Source of the DNA: a bacterium
GTDB lineage: Bacteria; Actinomycetota; Acidimicrobiia; Acidimicrobiales; CATQHL01
NCBI GenBank assembly: GCA_026708055.1
Contig: JAPOVS010000043.1
Location: forward strand, 1-64,000
Length of the DNA stretch: 64,000 nucleotides
Reading direction: 5' to 3'
Part shown: positions 9,124-63,324 of the stretch, one piece after another
Position numbering within the stretch: the first letter of the stretch is position 1
Layout: every line of letters begins with the position of its first letter
Notes under the pieces: model-generated
The model's input: only the letters and a program-made list of their open reading frames with translations
The model's database searches: none
What the model was told of the DNA's origin: nothing
Made by a program: the position numbers and the translations under genes

Positions 9124-10349
9124 GCCTTCGTGCTCGGCGGATTATGTCGGCGAGGCTCTACGTGCAGCCGGGCGTGGCCGGGCATCAGCGTGAGAAGTCG
9201 GTGCCGGCGACGGCGAAGACGACGTATTCGTGTTCGGGGGATTATTCGCTGGTGACGATCCCGATGCGTGGTCAGGAGTGCCGCAAGTCGGTGCCGGCGA
9301 CGGCGAAGACGAAGCGTTCGTGTTCGGGGGATTATTCGCTGAAGACGTTCTTCGTGCAGCCGGGCGTGGTGGGGTATCGGTGTGAGAAGTCGGTGCTGGC
9401 GACGGCGAAGACGACGTATTCGTGTTCGGAGGATTATTCGCTGGTGACGATCCCAATGGGTGGCCAGTACTGCCGCAAGTCAACGGCGGCGACGGCGACG
9501 TATTCGTGCCCGACGGGTTACACGCGCAGCGGCGCGACCTGTCACAAGTACACCTACACCAGCCCGAGCGGGCGCAGTTGTCCGGCGGGCTACTCGCCGA
9601 TCTACACCGGACTGGTTGTGACGTGCCGCAAGAAACTCACCACCGCCGCCACGGTCACCTACTCGTGCAGTTCGGGGACCCTGTCCGGTTCGAACTGCAT
9701 CCTCACAGCCACGCCGACGTCGATGACGACGTATTCGTGCAGTTCGGGGACACTGTCGGGTTCGAACTGTGTGGTGACAGCGACACCGACGTCGACGACG
9801 ACGTATTCGTGCACCTCGGGAACCCTGTCGGTCTCAAGCTGCATCTTCACGGCGACGCCGACACCGGAGACGATGTATTCGTGCACCTCGGGGCGCCTGT
9901 CGGGCTCGAACTGCATCCTCACCAACACGCCCACCGTCACCTACGACTGCGACGACGCGCCCGACGGCTACAGGCTCTCAGACCAGAACTGCACCAGGGT
10001 CACCATCAAAATCGCCACCCGGCCCACGATCTACACCTGTCCCGCCACCTACACCCGCAACGAGCCAACCGACCCCACTAACCCGCCCACCTGTACAAAG
10101 ATCGACATCATCAACGCCACCGTCACCACGACACCGGCCAGTTGTCCAAAAGTCGAACCCCCATTCCGACTCTACGAAGACCGCGTCGCCGGCAGGACCA
10201 AACACACCTGCGAGCGCACCATCACCACCGCCGCCCTCATCACCAGAACTTATTCGTGTCCCACAGACTATAGGCTCGAAAAGACAATCAACGGTCAAGA
10301 AACCGAGTACATCTGCAGACTGAAACAGACCACCACACCCAACACCTAA
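9124..10349 (+). pseudogene. Decayed paralogue of the C-terminal Cys-rich region of the surface protein
   Basis: From about 9200 the frame ending at 10349 encodes the same modules as the C-terminus of the 389-7042 protein: YSCSGDYSLVTIP, YSCPTGYTRSGATCHKY, 24-residue YSCSSGTLSGSNC repeats, then YDCDDAP.GY. There is no signal peptide or credible ribosome binding site. At 9124-9200 the DNA is homologous to an internal repeat (compare about 9308-9395) but carries a 2-nt length difference that breaks the frame. In-frame ATGs at 9072 and 9144 lie in or before this broken part. The likely reading is a 5'-truncated remnant of a second large surface gene. Expression as a short protein cannot be excluded. 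Confidence 0.7.
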
Positions 10350-55785: not shown

Positions 55786-56262
55786 CTATCGAGGCCATTG
55801 CTGGACCGGAGACTGCCACGGATCCGGGTTGGCGAACAGATAAGCGCTATCGGCCCAGCGCCCAAGGTTGTTGTAGCCGTCATCGGTGCTCCAGTTGTAG
55901 AAGTTGTAACCGCAGGGAATCGGCCCACAGCAAGAAGTTGTGTATCCGTACTGGTCCTGGAGCATGCTGATGTCGATCCCCAGTAGTCCATTGCCCTTCG
56001 CCTTGCTCGCCTCGATCTCGTAATTCACCCACCTGCTTGCACAGGTGTACGCGCCGACGAGGACGACGGTGACCGAAGTTCCGTGCAGTTGCTGATCGAT
56101 CCATCGCGCGATGGCAGCGTCCCCCTGCTTCTCGATGGACTCGAATTCGGCCTTGTCCAGGAAGCCAGCTGACTCGATCCCTCGAGTCGCCCAGCTATTG
56201 CGGACTTGGTTGACCCGCCAGACGTCGCTGTACTCGAAGCTGAAGAAGACTCTCCGGGCCAT
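55786..56262 (-). CDS. TIR-like (MTH538-type) domain protein
   Basis: This protein has 158 residues. RRVFFSFEYSDVWRVNQVRN, DKAEFESIEKQGDAAIARWI and TSVTVVLVGAYTCASRWVNY match the TIR-like MTH538 (DUF1863) fold, with an extended tail. Relatives act in anti-phage or signalling contexts, either as NAD-linked enzymes or as sensors; catalytic activity cannot be judged here. ATG 56262 is 3 bases after the stop of the upstream membrane protein gene, so the two are strongly coupled. The low-GC tail and codon use differ from the surrounding genes, which suggests transfer. Confidence 0.72.
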   Translation of the reverse strand: MARRVFFSFEYSDVWRVNQVRNSWATRGIESAGFLDKAEFESIEKQGDAAIARWIDQQLHGTSVTVVLVGAYTCASRWVNYEIEASKAKGNGLLGIDISMLQDQYGYTTSCCGPIPCGYNFYNWSTDDGYNNLGRWADSAYLFANPDPWQSPVQQWPR

Positions 56263-56265
56263 GGC

Positions 56266-56673
56266 TCAGCCTTGCGTGAACGCGATGACGGTGACGATCA
56301 CGACTGCCGCGACGAGCGTGCCGTGGAAGGCCGAGAGCGTGCGGGAGACGACGACGCTCCGCCACTTCACCTCGGCTTGGAAGGGGCCCGTGTCCATGTC
56401 ATAGTCGATGTCGGCGTCGTCGGCTTGGCGGGCGTGGTCGTAGAGCCTCCGGAAGAGCCTCTCCTGGCGGAGGTAATACCCGTCGAGACCCCAGAATGCC
56501 ACTGCCGGCAGGAACGCCACGGACAGGATCCAGTCCTCGGAACTGCTGGCTGCGACGGCCAGTAGAGCGGAAATCAGCAGGACGCTCCATCCCTTCAGCA
56601 AGAACGAGTTCTGCGCAAGGCGGTTGATGACCCCTTGGATCATCGCCAGGTGGGCCTCGCGCTTGTCCGCCAT
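56266..56673 (-). CDS. Two-TM membrane protein paired with the TIR-like protein
   Basis: This protein has 135 residues. HLAMIQGVINRLAQNSFLLK is followed by a hydrophobic hairpin (about residues 29-64: VLLISALLAVAA and LSVAFLPAVAFWGLDGYYL). An acidic stretch and a second hydrophobic segment lie at the C-terminus (SAFHGTLVAAVVIVTVIAF). Similar small membrane proteins occur next to TIR-like genes in defence neighbourhoods and resemble S-2TM/SLATT-type effectors. ATG 56673 follows AGGATT. A pore-forming effector role is inferred, not shown. Confidence 0.7.
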   Translation of the reverse strand: MADKREAHLAMIQGVINRLAQNSFLLKGWSVLLISALLAVAASSSEDWILSVAFLPAVAFWGLDGYYLRQERLFRRLYDHARQADDADIDYDMDTGPFQAEVKWRSVVVSRTLSAFHGTLVAAVVIVTVIAFTQG

Positions 56674-57067: not shown

Positions 57068-57157
57068 CACGGGGCCTCTGGTGCGGTGAGCTTGGGAGCT
57101 GCGGGAGAACGTCATCGGCCGCAGACGGGTTGGTTCTCGCGACGGCCGTTGCTCCGG

Positions 57158-58291
57158 TCAGGTGTCGAGGAGCCAAGCGAGCATTGAGGTGGGCACGGCG
57201 GTGACGTCGGGGTGGTCGAGGTTCAGTTCGCTGCGGGTGGCGATGATGCCCTGCCAGCGGGAGGCCCGCAGGGTCTTGGCCGATCCGAACCAGCGGCCGT
57301 CCATGTATTTCGATTCGATGGCGGCTTCGCCGAAGTCCCGCCCCACGAAGTCGATCTCGCTGCCTGTGCGGCTGCGGTGGTGCAGCACACGGTCGAAGCC
57401 GAGATGGCCGCCGGGCGTTACGGCCTCCAGGTTCCGGAGGAGGGCGAGGCCGAGTTGCTGCTCGGAGAGGACGGTTGCGTCGGGTTCGGCGCCCGGCGCG
57501 AGCTGCGTGTAGATCGGGTCGGAGAAGTACAGCTTCGACTGTGCGCGCAACTTCGGGCGCAGGTCCTGCTCCCGGTGGCACGGCCAGAGGGCGAACGCCT
57601 CCTGCAGGTCGACCAGACGGCGCCGCACCTGTTCAGCGGAGGTGTCCGTGTCCTCTGAGGCCGCGGACCGGTTGGTCTGCGAACCCAGGTTGCGGCTCAG
57701 CCGCCGCAGCAGCGCGAAGGTCTGCGGGCGTGACCAGTCCCCCCGGTCGAAGATGTCGTGTTCGACGACCTCGAGCAGGCTCTGCTGCAGGTCGGGATCG
57801 GAGTCTCGGATCGTCAGATGGGCCGTCACCGCCTGCGGGAAGCCGCCCACCCGGAGGTAGTCGTCCCAGGCGGACACGAGGAGGTTCAGCCAGGGAGCGA
57901 GTTCGTACGTCGATTCGGCCAGGGAGTTCGGGTTCAGGTCGGCGATCCGGAGCGAACCGATCTGGCTCGGAAGCGGCTCGCGCGCCGTCAGACCGGCGAA
58001 GCTGCGGAATCCCATCGGAAGGAGCACGCGATCCGAGCTGCCGCGGCCGGCTCGTCGTCCGGCCAGGATGCCGACGGCCTCGGTCAGGTCGCTCGCCGAC
58101 GAGCCGGTGAGGATCACCGTGTCTGTGCTGAACCTGGTGTCGTTGTCCCGTAACCACTTGACGCGGTGGGGCCAGCCGTTGCGGACCGAGGTGATCTCGT
58201 CGATGAACCAGCAGCGACGGCCCTCGGGTGCCGTCAAGCGTCCGGCGGCGTCGACGAGCCGCCCCAGATCGTCGGCCCGCCAGCCATCCAC
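57158..58291 (-). pseudogene. AAA/DUF4143 ATPase lacking its Walker A part
   Basis: The 377 codons carry Walker B CWFIDEIT, a sensor-like VILTGSSASDL, the DUF4143 region (YLRVGGFPQAV, RRLSRNLGSQTN, LYFSDPIYTQL) and the nuclease-like HHRSRTGSEIDFVGRDFGEAAIESKYMDG. The frame is open a few codons further up (RLIVYASVDGW), but the P-loop GxxGxGKS is not there; the DNA instead meets the end of the MFS remnant at 58328. It is therefore a 5'-truncated gene. It may still be translated but should not bind ATP normally. Confidence 0.65.
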
Positions 58292-58327
58292 GGACGCGTA
58301 GACGATGAGGCGCGGGGCCGGCGAGGT

Positions 58328-59051
58328 TCAGCGGGTCTGCGGCGTTCCCGGTTGCGGGGCGGCGCCGATCGGGCCGGCGGGTGCGTCGGGGTCGGGGGCG
58401 GCGGGGGGCAGCGGGGCCGCCTCGACGGCGTCGGGGTGGAGGTTGGCGGTGACCGCGGTGCCGCGGGCGGGTAGGGCGACGTAGTCGCTCTGCTCGTCCA
58501 CCGGGATGGCGGGGTGGGTCACGACCCGGTAGAGCACGTAGACGGCGATGATGGCGTGGACGGCGGCCAGCACCACGAAGAAGGTGCTGGGCCCGGTGGC
58601 GCCCATGATCGCTCCCGCAACTGCCGGAAAGATCGCCGCGCCGGTGCTGGTGATGCGCGCCAGGGTCGCGCTCGCGGAGGTGATCTGGCTCGAGGACGCG
58701 GTCGACGGTGAGAGCCACCGCGAGGGAGTGAAGCGGGAACGTGAGCCCGCCGAAGAGGAACATGAGCAGCAGCAGCGCCCAGACGGCGGGGTTGACCCAC
58801 ACGGCGTGCAGGATCGCGGCACTCGAGGCTGTCGAGGCCAGCGCGGCGAACCCCCTGATGTGGCCGACCGCCGCCACGAACCGCACCGCGATCGCGGTGC
58901 CGAACAGGAAGCCCAGGAAGTAGGTCGCCATGACCGCGCCGGTGACGGCGAAGCCGAACCCCTCGAGTTCGGCCCGGACGCCCAGCACCGAGCCCTGCAG
59001 GCCGTTGCCGACCATGAGGAACACCATGCCGAGGGGGTGGGGGCGAGGCAC
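58328..59051 (-). pseudogene. MFS transporter remnant with internal deletion and frameshift
   Basis: The N-terminal ~85 residues (FLMVGNGLQGSVLGVRAELE, GFLFGTAIAVRFVAAVGH) jump directly to the C-terminal third (LMFLFGGLTFPLHSLAVAL); more than 200 residues present in the intact paralogue at 61954-63324 are missing. A frameshift near 58690 breaks the remainder. The 58235-58642 part differs at only two of about 408 bases from 61861-62268. Confidence 0.85.
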
Positions 59052-59059
59052 GGCCTACG

Positions 59060-60292
59060 ATGTCGGCCATGACCGACGATGTCGGATACCTGCCACGGCT
59101 GGCGAAACGCAGCGAGTTCGTCGACTATCTGGAGGGCCATCCCGTGCTGGCCGCGGCGGACATCGAACATCCCGACGCGGGCCGCAAGCTGGTCAAGACC
59201 TACATGCTCGAGACCGCGGGCCGCGACCGGCACATGCCCGACCTGGCCAGCAGGTTCGCCGGGCGTGTTCATCTTCACCGTCTCGACGACACGCTGTTCC
59301 GCGTCGAGGACGCCGACCACGGGGGCCAAGTGGTCGGCCTGATCGAGGAACTCGACGACAGGCATCCCGTCTTCTACACGAAGATGGCCGTGGAGCACAG
59401 CGACCGGTGGGTCCGCCAGACGGTCGAGACAAGCCCGTGGCTCGACCGGCTCTGGCTGTCGTCGCCGATCCTGTTCGAGTTGTGGCGTCAGGTGAAGGCC
59501 ACGACGCCGCCCCAGCGCTACGCGCGGCTCGGCTTCGAGCACGAGGCACGCTATGAGCCGATCGACGGCCTTGATGCGGGCACCGAGGACGACGGCGCCG
59601 ACGATGCCGACTACGAGACGCCGCACGCCCTTGTAGAGCGCCGACGTTCGGTGGTGACGCTCACCGAGAGCCTGTCGGTGCTGGGGAAGAAGCTGCAGCG
59701 GCTCATTGATTCCTATGATCCGCTGCGCTCGCTGGTGCACCTACAGATGCCAGCGGCCGGCCGTGGTGGCCACCGCCTCAACTACGACGGTCGCGCCACG
59801 AATCGGAGCGACTCGTTCGCCGACCACCGGGCGACGGTACGGCGCGTGCTCGCGCTCTACCGCCGCGTAACCGAGTATGCCGAAGAGCGCCTCTGGATCG
59901 ACACCACCGACGTCGGCGAAGACGGGTTCAAGATCCGCGGCAGCCCTCTCGTCATCGATTTCGACGAGCCCCTGAGCGAGCCGCTGTTCAACCGCTTTGT
60001 GGAGCTTGCTCTCGAACGACGGACTAGCCGCTTCCGTATCGGTGGCTTCGTCACGCGTCGCGGGCCCACCAAGGCACATGTCGTTGCCGTGGATCGGCAT
60101 CTGTGGCAACCCTTCTTGCTGGAGGTCACCAGCCGGCATCTTCTCGCTGTGCTGCCCCATGGCACCTGCGGGAACACAGTCCACCGACTTGTCGCCAACG
60201 TGCAGCGGGAGCTGGCTCCGACCGCAACAGCCTGGCTCGGCAGCGAGCCCTATGAGAAGGCGGTGGCCGATGCCGCCGGCGTCGTCGCATGA
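59060..60292 (+). CDS. Unrecognised protein, first gene of a two-gene unit
   Basis: This protein has 410 residues. No family or catalytic motif was recognised. Visible features are an Asp-rich N-terminal half (ADIEHPDAGRKLVKTYMLE, DDTLFRVEDADHGGQVVG), an acidic loop near residue 178 (GTEDDGADDADYE) and a basic, beta-rich C-terminal third (RIGGFVTRRGPTKAHVVAVD, FLLEVTSRHLLAVL). There is no signal peptide or TM helix, so it should be cytoplasmic. ATG 59060 or ATG 59069 could be used. Its stop overlaps the next start (ATGA), so the two proteins are made together. The unit lies between two near-identical repeats. The function cannot be named from sequence. Confidence 0.7.
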   Translation: MSAMTDDVGYLPRLAKRSEFVDYLEGHPVLAAADIEHPDAGRKLVKTYMLETAGRDRHMPDLASRFAGRVHLHRLDDTLFRVEDADHGGQVVGLIEELDDRHPVFYTKMAVEHSDRWVRQTVETSPWLDRLWLSSPILFELWRQVKATTPPQRYARLGFEHEARYEPIDGLDAGTEDDGADDADYETPHALVERRRSVVTLTESLSVLGKKLQRLIDSYDPLRSLVHLQMPAAGRGGHRLNYDGRATNRSDSFADHRATVRRVLALYRRVTEYAEERLWIDTTDVGEDGFKIRGSPLVIDFDEPLSEPLFNRFVELALERRTSRFRIGGFVTRRGPTKAHVVAVDRHLWQPFLLEVTSRHLLAVLPHGTCGNTVHRLVANVQRELAPTATAWLGSEPYEKAVADAAGVVA

Positions 60293-61353
60293 CCTCCGAC
60301 GCCATTCTCGTCTCCGATCCCGTATTCCAACTCAACGTCCTGCTGTGGGCGCTCGAGGATCTCCCCGAGGTCACCTCCGTGCGGCCGGTCCTGCGCACGG
60401 CCGGATACGAGTTGGAGTCGCTTGGCAGACGACTGCTCGTCCCGGCCGACGAGCCGACCATCGCAGCCCTTCGCGACATCGCGGGCTCTGCCGACCGATC
60501 GCCATGCCATCCGGACTTGTGCATTGACAATCAGGACGACCCGGTGACGCTGGTCGTTGAACTCAAGTCCCACGGGTTCTCCCAGGACTCCTCGAACGTG
60601 CGGCAAGCCGCGAAGCTGATCGTTGCTTCCCATGACTTGTCGGAGTCGTACGCCGAGAAACAGCCCCGACCGGGCCATGTGGTGTACGGAACTGTCGAGA
60701 GCGACGCCGCCCTCCTCGCGGAGACGCTTCAGGGGTTGAACGAGTCCCTGGCCTCCCGGGGCGTACCCGCGGCCCCAACCGGCACAGTAGGCATCTCCAT
60801 CGATGACGAGGGGGTGAGGCTCTCAACCTCCCACCTCTCCGATCTGCCTGCGCGCGCCCAACGAGCGCTTGAGACCCCTGTGACTGTGGTGCGTCGTCAC
60901 GGCGAAGACGACATCCGACCTCTCTACGTGATTCCGTGGATTCCCGGCATACAGGGAACCCAGGATCCAGAACTTCAAGCGGATGGCTACAGGGAGTTGA
61001 CGGCCCGCATAGTCGTTGAAGCGATGGCCATCGTAGGTCAAGCTATCGTGCCGACGACCCTCAACATCACAGGGACAATGCTGCCGAGCCGGGCAACCTA
61101 TGGCGTATTCGACCGATGGCTGGATGCTGATCGACAACAATTCGCTGTGGCGGCGACGAGTGTGGTGACCACGAACCTGCAGAGTCTCAGCTGCTTCCAG
61201 AGGCCGAGCAGAGACACATTCTCCCTAGCGCTCTCAAGCCACGATGAACGAGCGGAAGTCATACGGCTCCTGGAACAGGCCAAACCAGCCGACAACAGAA
61301 CAAACGTGGAAGCTGCGGTCAACGAAGCCCCAAAGCTCTTTGATGATTTCTGA
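60289..61353 (+). CDS. Unrecognised protein with PD-(D/E)xK-like motif, second gene of the unit
   Basis: This protein has 354 residues. Residues 75-93 read PDLCIDNQDDPVTLVVELK, with Asp76 and Glu91-x-Lys93 placed as in PD-(D/E)xK nucleases; the following GFSQDSSNVRQAAKLIVAS helix also suits that fold. The rest is not recognised (a beta-rich middle, GTVGISIDDEGVRLSTSH, and a C-terminal VAATSVVTTNLQSLS). It overlaps the upstream gene by 4 bases and ends just before IS1380 remnant DNA. A restriction-like or DNA-processing role in a defence module is plausible but unproven. Confidence 0.68.
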   Translation: MTSDAILVSDPVFQLNVLLWALEDLPEVTSVRPVLRTAGYELESLGRRLLVPADEPTIAALRDIAGSADRSPCHPDLCIDNQDDPVTLVVELKSHGFSQDSSNVRQAAKLIVASHDLSESYAEKQPRPGHVVYGTVESDAALLAETLQGLNESLASRGVPAAPTGTVGISIDDEGVRLSTSHLSDLPARAQRALETPVTVVRRHGEDDIRPLYVIPWIPGIQGTQDPELQADGYRELTARIVVEAMAIVGQAIVPTTLNITGTMLPSRATYGVFDRWLDADRQQFAVAATSVVTTNLQSLSCFQRPSRDTFSLALSSHDERAEVIRLLEQAKPADNRTNVEAAVNEAPKLFDDF

Positions 61354-61429
61354 GCGCTGAATCTACCGTTTGGGATCAGTGGGGATTGTCGGGTGGGTGG
61401 TTTTGGGGGGTCGGTGGTCATTTCGGGGC

Positions 61430-61780
61430 AGTGGGGCGGCTGTTTCGGCGCGGGTCGCCACGAGCGGGTGATAGCCGAGTTGTTTGGTGTGGCCGTAGGC
61501 GGTGCCCGCCTTGTCCGTGCAGGACACCCCGCAGACCATGGAGTCCACGTCGATGGTCATCGGCCCGCCGCCGGGGCCCCGCCGCCCTGCCACGCCCGAC
61601 TGAGGACCTCGCCGGTGGCCCGTTCCGACTGGTGGAGGTGGCTCCAGGTGAACGAGGCAGGAACGTCCCCACCGCGACGGCGCCGCCGGACCGAACCCCA
61701 GCACCGCAGAGGCAGAGCCCGCCCGCAGCCCCCCACGTGGTCGATATGGGTCGCTCCGACTGCCATCACCGCCGCCAACA
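61430..61780 (-). mobile_element. Remnant of an IS1380-family transposase
   Basis: Minus-strand pieces in different frames read VLAAVMAVGATHIDHV, AVLGFGPAAPSRWG, SFTWSHLHQSERATGEVL, then TIDVDSMVCGVS and GTAYGHTKQLGYHPLVATRA, in the order of an IS1380 transposase N-terminal half. At least two frameshifts and loss of the C-terminal part make it inactive. No terminal inverted repeat was identified. It abuts the 61781-62268 repeat copy. Confidence 0.75.
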
Positions 61781-62268
61781 CGGGGCCTCTGCTGCGGTGA
61801 GCTTGGGAGCTGCGGGAGAACGTCACCGGCCGCAGACGGGTTGATTCTCGCGACGGCCGTCAAGCGTCCGGCGGCGTCGACGAGCGGCCCCAGATCGTCG
61901 GCCCGCCAGCCATCCACGGACGCGTAGACGGTGAGGCGCGGGGCCGGCGAGGTTCAGCGGGTCTGCGGCGTTCCCGGTTGCGGGGCGGCGCCGATCGGGC
62001 CGGCGGGTGCGTCGGGGTCGGGGGCGGCGGGGGGCAGCGGGGCCGCCTCGACGGCGTCGGGGTGGAGGTTGGCGGTGACCGCGGTGCCGCGGGCGGGTAG
62101 GGCGACGTAGTCGCTCTGCTCGTCCACCGGGATGGCGGGGTGGGTCACGACCCGGTAGAGCACGTAGACGGCGATGATGGCGTGGACGGCGGCCAGCACC
62201 ACGAAGAAGGTGCTGGGCCCGGTGGCGCCCATGATCGCTCCCGCAACTGCCGGAAAGATCGCCGCGCC
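61781..62268. repeat. Second copy of the 57070-57149 plus 58235-58642 segment
   Basis: 61781-61860 matches 57070-57149 and 61861-62268 matches 58235-58642, with 2 differences seen in the latter. The copy-1 interval 57150-58234 is absent here. GCCGT occurs at both ends of the missing interval (57145-57149, 58230-58234) and once at the join (61856-61860), the mark of a short-homology deletion. Confidence 0.9.
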
Positions 62269-63324
62269 CACGCCGGTGAGGCGGACCAGGGTGGCGGTGG
62301 CGGAGGTGATCTGCGCCGGTGCGACCCGGTCGGCGGTGATGGCCACGGCCAGGGAGTGCAGTGGGAAGGTGAAGCCGCCGAACAGGAACATGAGCACCAG
62401 GGACGGAGCCGAGCCGGGTTCGGTCAGCAACGCACCCGCAGCCGCCAGTGCCGCCGCCACGGCGGTCGCGCCGATCACGGCCCGTCTGGAGACCCGGTCG
62501 GAGAGCCAGCCGATGGGCCACTGGAACACCACACATCCCAGGGGCGCCGCGGCGGTGAAGACCGCGATCCGGCCGTCGGAGAGTCCCTCGGAGGAGGCGT
62601 AGATGGCGGCGAGGCCCAGCAGGGTGCCGTGCCCGGCGCCGGTCCAGAAGGCGGTGACCGCGCCGGTCGGGATCACCGACACCAGCCGGCGCAGCGACAG
62701 GGGCTCGGGCACGGACACCGGGGGAGCGGTGGTGGCCGACAGGGTGATGGGCACCAGGGCGAGGGAGACCAGCACCGAGGCCAGCACGAACAGTTCGAAC
62801 CCGGCCGGGTCGCCGCCGGCCAAGAGGAGTTGCCCTCCCGCCAGGCCGCCCATCATGACGACCATGTAGCCGCCCAGGATCCGCCCCCGGTCGGCGTTGG
62901 TGGCCATGTCGTTGAGCCAGGACTCCACCACCACGTAGAGGCCGGCGAGGCACAGCCCGAACACCAAGCGCAACAGCGCCCACGTGGCAGGGTTGACCCA
63001 CACGGCGTGCAGGATTGCAGCACTCGACGCTGTCGAGGCCAGCGCGGCGAACACCCTGATGTGGCCGACCGCCGCCAGGAACCGCTCGGCGACCGCGGTG
63101 CCGAAGAGGAAGCCCACGAAGTAGGCGGCCATGACGGCGCCGGCGACGGCGAAGCCGAACCCCTCGATCTCGGCCCGGACGCCCAGGACCGAGGCCTGCA
63201 AGCCGTTGCCGACCATGAGGAACGCCATGCCGACCAGCAGGGTCCGGACGGCCTTGCCGCTGCGAATCGTTGGACCGTTCACGTTTGCCCGTCCCGACTC
63301 TCCGGCCGGAGCGATCGCCTCCAC
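61954..63324 (-). CDS. MFS transporter (YcaD/DHA-like)
   Basis: This protein has 456 residues and about 12 membrane helices. MFS signatures include FLFGTAVAERFLAAVGHIRVF and WPIGWLSDRVSRRAVIGATA, plus VVESWLNDMATNADRGRILG. The C-terminus is a Pro-rich soluble tail encoded by the near-identical repeat. The substrate is unknown; relatives export small molecules. GTG 63324 is used; GTG 63282 (start of VNGPTIRSGK) is an alternative. It is divergent from the GFA gene, with an operator-like repeat between them. It is the intact parent-type copy of the 58328-59051 remnant. Confidence 0.8.
   Translation of the reverse strand: MEAIAPAGESGRANVNGPTIRSGKAVRTLLVGMAFLMVGNGLQASVLGVRAEIEGFGFAVAGAVMAAYFVGFLFGTAVAERFLAAVGHIRVFAALASTASSAAILHAVWVNPATWALLRLVFGLCLAGLYVVVESWLNDMATNADRGRILGGYMVVMMGGLAGGQLLLAGGDPAGFELFVLASVLVSLALVPITLSATTAPPVSVPEPLSLRRLVSVIPTGAVTAFWTGAGHGTLLGLAAIYASSEGLSDGRIAVFTAAAPLGCVVFQWPIGWLSDRVSRRAVIGATAVAAALAAAGALLTEPGSAPSLVLMFLFGGFTFPLHSLAVAITADRVAPAQITSATATLVRLTGVGAAIFPAVAGAIMGATGPSTFFVVLAAVHAIIAVYVLYRVVTHPAIPVDEQSDYVALPARGTAVTANLHPDAVEAAPLPPAAPDPDAPAGPIGAAPQPGTPQTR

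Follow-up and report, generated by a model that had tools for sequence, protein, structure and literature searches.

DISARM, which combines DrmA, DrmB and DrmC with DrmD and DrmMI, can dispense with its nuclease DrmC, and which nuclease degrades DNA in this system is open (PMC9142583). NucS uses a C-terminal clamp-binding tail (PMC8228993), the bacterial clamp motif being QL(S/D)LF (PMC9690074). Nuclease-protease pairs of Hachiman and AVAST illustrate the repeated uptake of a two-gene nuclease module by defence systems that are not related, with trees that match (PMC12799240), and Chl4/Iml3, which are the CENP-N/L orthologues in yeast, are similar to RdgC and TBP (PMC4080450). We analysed a two-gene unit within a 64,000-nucleotide stretch of bacterial DNA (hereafter the window), from an assembly of 3.9 Mb in 87 contigs whose near relatives are Acidimicrobiia MAGs; several isolate names among these suggest a sponge-symbiont origin. 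We predict that the pair is most likely a DNA-targeting defence unit.

The gene pair and its island

Both open reading frames are undamaged and lie on the + strand, and an ATGA at 60289-60292 is common to the end of gene 1 and the start of gene 2, bearing out an earlier note on this DNA that had described two coupled, intact genes. The pair and its edges are as follows.

59060-60292, + strand: gene 1, 410 aa, predicted DNA-binding/controller protein of a new family (open reading frame, alignments, no Pfam or PADLOC family, AF2 pLDDT 85)
60289-61353, + strand: gene 2, 354 aa, predicted PD-(D/E)xK nuclease (open reading frame, near-invariant E91, K93 and Q106, AF2 pLDDT 92)
59034-59068, + strand: left cassette edge, with a promoter-like TACGAT at 59056-59061 just 5' of the conserved ATG at 59069 (near-copy and upstream comparison)
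61354, no strand: right cassette edge, where near-copy homology ends at the gene 2 stop

The real start of gene 1 is likely the ATG at 59069 (giving 407 aa) rather than the one at 59060, since relatives align from 59069 and the ATG at 59060 stems from a single substitution in a TACGCT box; the transcript is probably leaderless. Sequence shared with near copies spans 59034 to 61354, that is, to the stop codon of gene 2, and the immediate flanks are unrelated; because of these limits we regard the pair as a sharply bounded cassette. Both genes are under purifying selection, with dN/dS between the window copy and the nearest intact copy (L032) of ~0.11 for gene 1 (dN 0.042, dS 0.396) and ~0.20 for gene 2 (dN 0.068, dS 0.342). 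Recent arrival and selection, which the earlier note had raised, are thus both supported, the one by the bounded cassette relative to near copies and the other by dN/dS.

Homologues across phyla, low dN/dS and correlated distance matrices indicate that gene 1 and gene 2 are real genes. Neither has a family in Pfam, PADLOC or NCBIfam, and neither window protein has a credible PDB match by sequence or by a profile search for PDB relatives. PADLOC profiles (a version dating from 2023) gave no credible match for 33 diverse members of gene 1 or 32 of gene 2. A DUF2470 match of gene 1 (E 0.02, one of 33 members) was taken as chance. No description of the pair was found in the literature searched, the coverage of which was incomplete. 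Judged by the family databases searched here, the pair is a previously uncatalogued two-protein family across bacteria and archaea. INPHARED holds no phage homologues of the pair, and scanning viral contigs with gene 1 yielded two loci.

The earlier note was right to place the pair in a decay-rich, defence-like island, which contains a ThsB-TIR/PDC-M50A pair, an N-terminally truncated DUF4143 ATPase and an MFS region that is duplicated and in part deleted.

55786-56262, - strand: ThsB-like TIR protein, neighbouring defence gene (PADLOC ThsB, E 1.8e-53)
56266-56673, - strand: PDC-M50A, neighbouring candidate defence gene (PADLOC; homologue also near the cassette in L031, L050 and L082)
57158-58291, - strand: remnant of a DUF4143/AAA_14 ATPase (PDC-S01-like), N-terminal part missing (Pfam and PADLOC)

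Near the cassette, the ThsB-TIR/PDC-M50A pair (window 55786-56673) or just M50A is found again at other loci (L031:5721-6615, L050, L082); in L031 it separates drmMI from gene 1. It may be a further accessory module of these islands. Two copies of the MFS region, 90-96% identical, flank the cassette (57068-57149 and 61779-61860, 58230-58772 and 61856-62400, 58769-59032 and 62970-63233). The left copy has an internal deletion and is cut off at the cassette edge, where its N-terminus is missing, whereas the right copy is undamaged; the doubling represents a duplication or an assembly artefact.

Predicted proteins and proposed action

Prediction of gene 2 as a PD-(D/E)xK nuclease is well supported by alignments and by its structural model, the relevant parts of which are listed below.

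60406-60828, + strand: nuclease core, residues 40-180 (conservation, model, weak family matches)
60514-60516 (D76), 60559-60561 (E91), 60565-60567 (K93) and 60604-60606 (Q106), + strand: predicted active-site codons
61054-61275, + strand: predicted winged helix, residues 256-329 (E-H-H-H-E-E in the model; weak Foldseek matches to the Cdt1 winged helix)
61327-61350, + strand: C-terminal tail APKLFDDF, site of a clamp-binding-like motif, which reads QxxLF in many relatives and departs from the canonical form in the window

We found that E91, K93, F97 and Q106 were invariant in a 42-row alignment, while among 32 more diverse rows K93 and Q106 were invariant and E91 was kept in at least 90%. P75-D76 precedes E91/K93, which completes the (P)(D/E)...(D/E)xK signature of the superfamily; the positions of Asp76, Glu91 and Lys93 given earlier hold, and Q106 is additional. 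In the AF2 model (pLDDT 92, pTM 0.89), D76 comes before E91 and K93, which end a beta hairpin, and a helix with Q106 follows (topology by eye). The earlier proposal of a PD-(D/E)xK-like partner therefore gains from the near-invariant residues, from the confidently modelled strand order and from weak family matches among relatives, four to HSDR_N_2 and one to Hjc. A Foldseek check, which the note had proposed, agreed in part: strand order fits the alpha-beta-beta-beta-alpha-beta core and BFVD returned Gp54 of Bacillus phage G (E 1.1e-3) together with weak PD-(D/E)XK entries, but no PDB fold matched at E<0.001. The nuclease would be expected to cut DNA.

QxxLF occurs within the last 25 residues of 13 of 48 gene 2 members, compared to 0.2 in shuffles, and xxxLF in 28 of 48, compared to 4.1, both counts being inflated by relatedness; the tail in the window reads APKLF, not QxxLF. 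QxxLF fits the bacterial clamp motif, and on this ground the tail may dock the gene 2 relatives that carry it on the replication clamp.

Polar invariants of gene 1 in alignments of relatives are K46, E51, R101, D129, D345xH347 and C370xNTxxR376. Its AF2 model (pLDDT 85, pTM 0.87) matched human CENP-L in Foldseek at E 4e-4, with a TM of only ~0.3, and contains two stretches of the same strand and helix order.

59192-59422, + strand: TBP-like repeat 1 of gene 1, residues 45-121, S1-H1-S2-S3-S4-S5-H2 (model, Foldseek to CENP-L, topology by eye)
59948-60211, + strand: TBP-like repeat 2 of gene 1, residues 297-384, same strand/helix order, holding D345xH347 and GTCGNTxHRL

Because hhalign detects no internal repeat at the sequence level, we advance the fold of two TBP/CENP-L-like repeats as a hypothesis drawn from the model. 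Of gene 1, one contig in a viral collection, which also has DNA methyltransferases and a terminase-like ORF, encodes the C-terminal TBP-like repeat alone (L012:297-731, 145 aa), possibly as a fragment or a decoy inhibitor.

We propose, with a probability of roughly 0.55, that the pair is a mobile module against viruses or other mobile elements, in which gene 1 directs and restrains a gene 2 nuclease that is clamp-docked in much of the family. Gene 2 would be a PD-(D/E)xK DNA nuclease with a winged helix, docked on the replication clamp by its C-terminal QxxLF tail where this is present, such that it would cut DNA being copied, and gene 1, as a two-repeat TBP/CENP-L-like protein, would recognise a DNA state. 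The module could act alone or spliced into larger systems, within DISARM or beside Gabija and type I restriction. We infer that gene 1 acts as a controller and that the pair is antiviral, with phage as its target. A functional clamp tail would give a nuclease a simple route to replicating invaders. More tentatively, the pair may define a new class of replication-coupled immunity, with a TBP-like DNA sensor and a clamp-tethered nuclease cutting foreign DNA during copying, which would be portable, could supply the missing nuclease of DISARM and would in Bacilli be accompanied by a repeat RNA as well as a PemK-like gene.

Spread and one-sided loss

The pair is widespread yet rare, ranging from Acidimicrobiia to Bacilli, Methanothrix, Halobacterium and Methanocaldococcus, and it is plasmid-borne in Metabacillus, Lysinibacillus, Halobacterium and an M. 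jannaschii element. Scanning 84,980 genomes with gene 1 gave 63 loci (Acidimicrobiia, Bacilli, Chloroflexi, Acidobacteria, Aminicenantes, Nitrospirae, Methanothrix and others). In the class survey, each of the two genes was present in 12 of 395 genomes; in the Bacillales survey, 5 of 377 genomes had gene 1 and 4 had gene 2, and a divergent gene 2 adjoins gene 1 in the fifth genome (L109). Gene 2 lies directly 3' of gene 1 and adjoins it in 44 loci, with an overlap of 1-20 nt (usually 4, 8, 14 or 17 nt) or a gap of at most 42 nt. Distance matrices of the two genes were strongly correlated (r = 0.91, 32 distant loci; 0 of 2000 permutations), and the genes almost always travel together. One contig holds both an intact pair and a second, broken copy of gene 1 (L043:2754-5116 and 9228-10249), with the upstream gene repeated.

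Gene 2 was cut by differing deletions and frameshifts, with gene 1 kept, at L031, L050, L052, L044, L045, L040 and L056 and in the common ancestor of L041 and L047; gene 1 is full length at these loci except L052, where the contig starts inside it. No intact gene 2 with a broken or absent gene 1 was found in the gene 1-seeded search, which is biased against a lone gene 2 and with which unbiased surveys agree. Among full-length genes in the class survey (gene 1, n = 9; gene 2, n = 7), gene 1 was present with all seven copies of gene 2. The complete loss is one and the same event in L041 and L047, whose downstream sequences align end to end (1260 nt at 96%), and dN/dS of gene 1 since that old loss is 0.13; no gene 2 was found elsewhere in the genome of L047 (G775, a MAG and possibly incomplete). 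Gene 1 appears to be useful even where its nuclease is gone and, since it stayed constrained after the loss, is not merely a gene 2 helper, which weakens a pure antitoxin reading. Repeated nuclease loss with a constrained partner kept is a directly testable puzzle on gene 1.

In Bacilli, a PemK/MazF-like gene lies ~210 nt upstream of gene 1, and two tandem repeats, each of two small hairpins, followed by a terminator, lie between them.

L006:11740-12000, L070:8740-9000 and matching stretches of L071-L074, L077, L078 and L013: conserved structured RNA of Bacilli

The hairpins show covariation: 96.9% of cells are paired and in 18 cells both partners have changed, and neither value was reached in any of 500 shuffles. 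Exact matches to the core motif of the RNA occurred only at the PemK-like/gene 1 locus in the genomes searched, and the repeat RNA has no Rfam family. The layout resembles type III toxin-antitoxin loci (PMC8860590), with a different gene order.

These observations bear on whether the pair is a toxin-antitoxin-like selfish module, with gene 2 as a toxic nuclease and gene 1 as its antidote, kept by addiction and not by immunity. Intolerance of a lone toxin fits the repeated breakage of gene 2 beside an intact gene 1 and the finding of no intact gene 2 lacking gene 1, and the patchy, plasmid-borne spread and the PemK/MazF-like gene in Bacilli point the same way, but an antidote should be dispensable after toxin loss, which does not fit the purifying selection on gene 1 long after gene 2 disappeared from L041/L047. 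Both proteins are also large, which most antitoxins are not, and placement inside DISARM operons would be unexpected for a plain addiction module. We consider addiction unlikely.

Defence neighbours and comparison with known systems

The association of the pair with defence systems is well supported. The same cassette lies inside a DISARM locus in L031, L032, L033 and L050, and PADLOC identified DrmD (E 0), DrmMI (E 0), DrmA (3.5e-264) and DrmC (3.7e-70) around the pair in relatives. The operon reads drmD-drmMI-pair-drmA-drmB-drmC in L031, L032 and L088 and drmMI-pair-drmA-drmB-drmC in L050, with the drmA-drmB-drmC side also in L033 and L052, while the order pair-drmD-drmMI occurs in L049, L045 and an archaeal contig (L089), gene 2 sharing an ATGA with drmD in the first two. 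Gabija-like genes flank the pair in L039, L041 and L047, HsdM is next to it in L036, L038, L043, L047 and others, and a PDC-S28 helicase and an OLD-type nuclease occur at L009 and L007. The view of the pair as a defence module, put forward earlier, stands with regard to its DISARM, Gabija and type I restriction-modification neighbours and is tempered by housekeeping neighbours, which the note had named as grounds for refutation, at L064, L054 and L060, where they occur as isolated insertions; some loci have no recognisable defence neighbour.

HsdM-HsdS-like genes lead straight into the pair at two loci (L061:5069-10212, L062:1203-7352), where no hsdR-like gene was recognised by eye among the nearby listed ORFs, as if the pair stood in place of hsdR. 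A special link to DNA methyltransferases was rejected, as the [DNS]PP[YFW] motif was not enriched near the pair (17 of 289 near vs. 10 of 192 far ORFs).

Embedding at two positions of DISARM operons and the ATGA overlap with drmD raise the alternative that the proteins are accessory nuclease subunits of DISARM or restriction-like systems, giving the cutting that DISARM lacks, with stand-alone copies as relics; a dispensable DrmC and an open route of DNA degradation would accommodate this (PMC9142583). We judge it improbable, as DISARM is absent within about 9 kb at most loci in other phyla and at all Bacilli copies, with both genes intact, and the DISARM genes of L031 are full length despite the loss of gene 2. 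The core genes drmA, drmB and drmC, which are present at L031, L032, L050 and L088, are absent from the window, and its genome has no convincing DrmA, with only a generic helicase match (E 1e-5), which indicates that the module is separable from DISARM. Least probable of all is a DNA repair or recombination factor of NucS/RdgC type placed in genomic islands by chance, since the nuclease with a C-terminal clamp motif (recalling NucS; PMC8228993), the TBP-like fold found also in RdgC-like proteins and the housekeeping neighbours at some loci are set against a rare and patchy occurrence (12/395 and 5/377 genomes), horizontal movement as a cassette and defence neighbours.

A mobile defence module thus remains our preferred reading, and the pair differs from each related system. 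It is co-operonic with DISARM in several relatives and bears on which nuclease degrades DNA there, but neither protein is homologous to any Drm protein model and the pair occurs independently of DISARM in the window genome and most phyla. Gene 2 is like NucS/EndoMS in its predicted combination of a RecB-like nuclease and a putative clamp-binding motif at the C-terminus (QxxLF in the 13 relatives above, APKLF in the window), whereas the pair has two genes, an obligate-looking partner, patchy spread and no detectable sequence relation in family searches, including no match to the NucS profile in Pfam or NCBIfam. Gene 1 as modelled resembles CENP-L/Iml3, RdgC and TBP folds in its weak CENP-L match and its two putative S1-H1-S2-S5-H2 repeats, but lacks sequence similarity to them and has its own invariants, DxH and GTCGNTxHRL. 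The Bacilli branch alone is like the type III toxin-antitoxin system ToxIN, with tandem RNA repeats and a terminator before a protein gene and a ribonuclease-toxin-like gene adjacent, but here the PemK-like gene precedes the RNA, which is followed by two unrelated genes. Hachiman and AVAST pairs likewise are two-gene nuclease modules acquired across unrelated systems, and consist of an MBL-fold nuclease and a protease, whereas this pair is predicted to combine a PD-(D/E)xK nuclease with a TBP-like protein.
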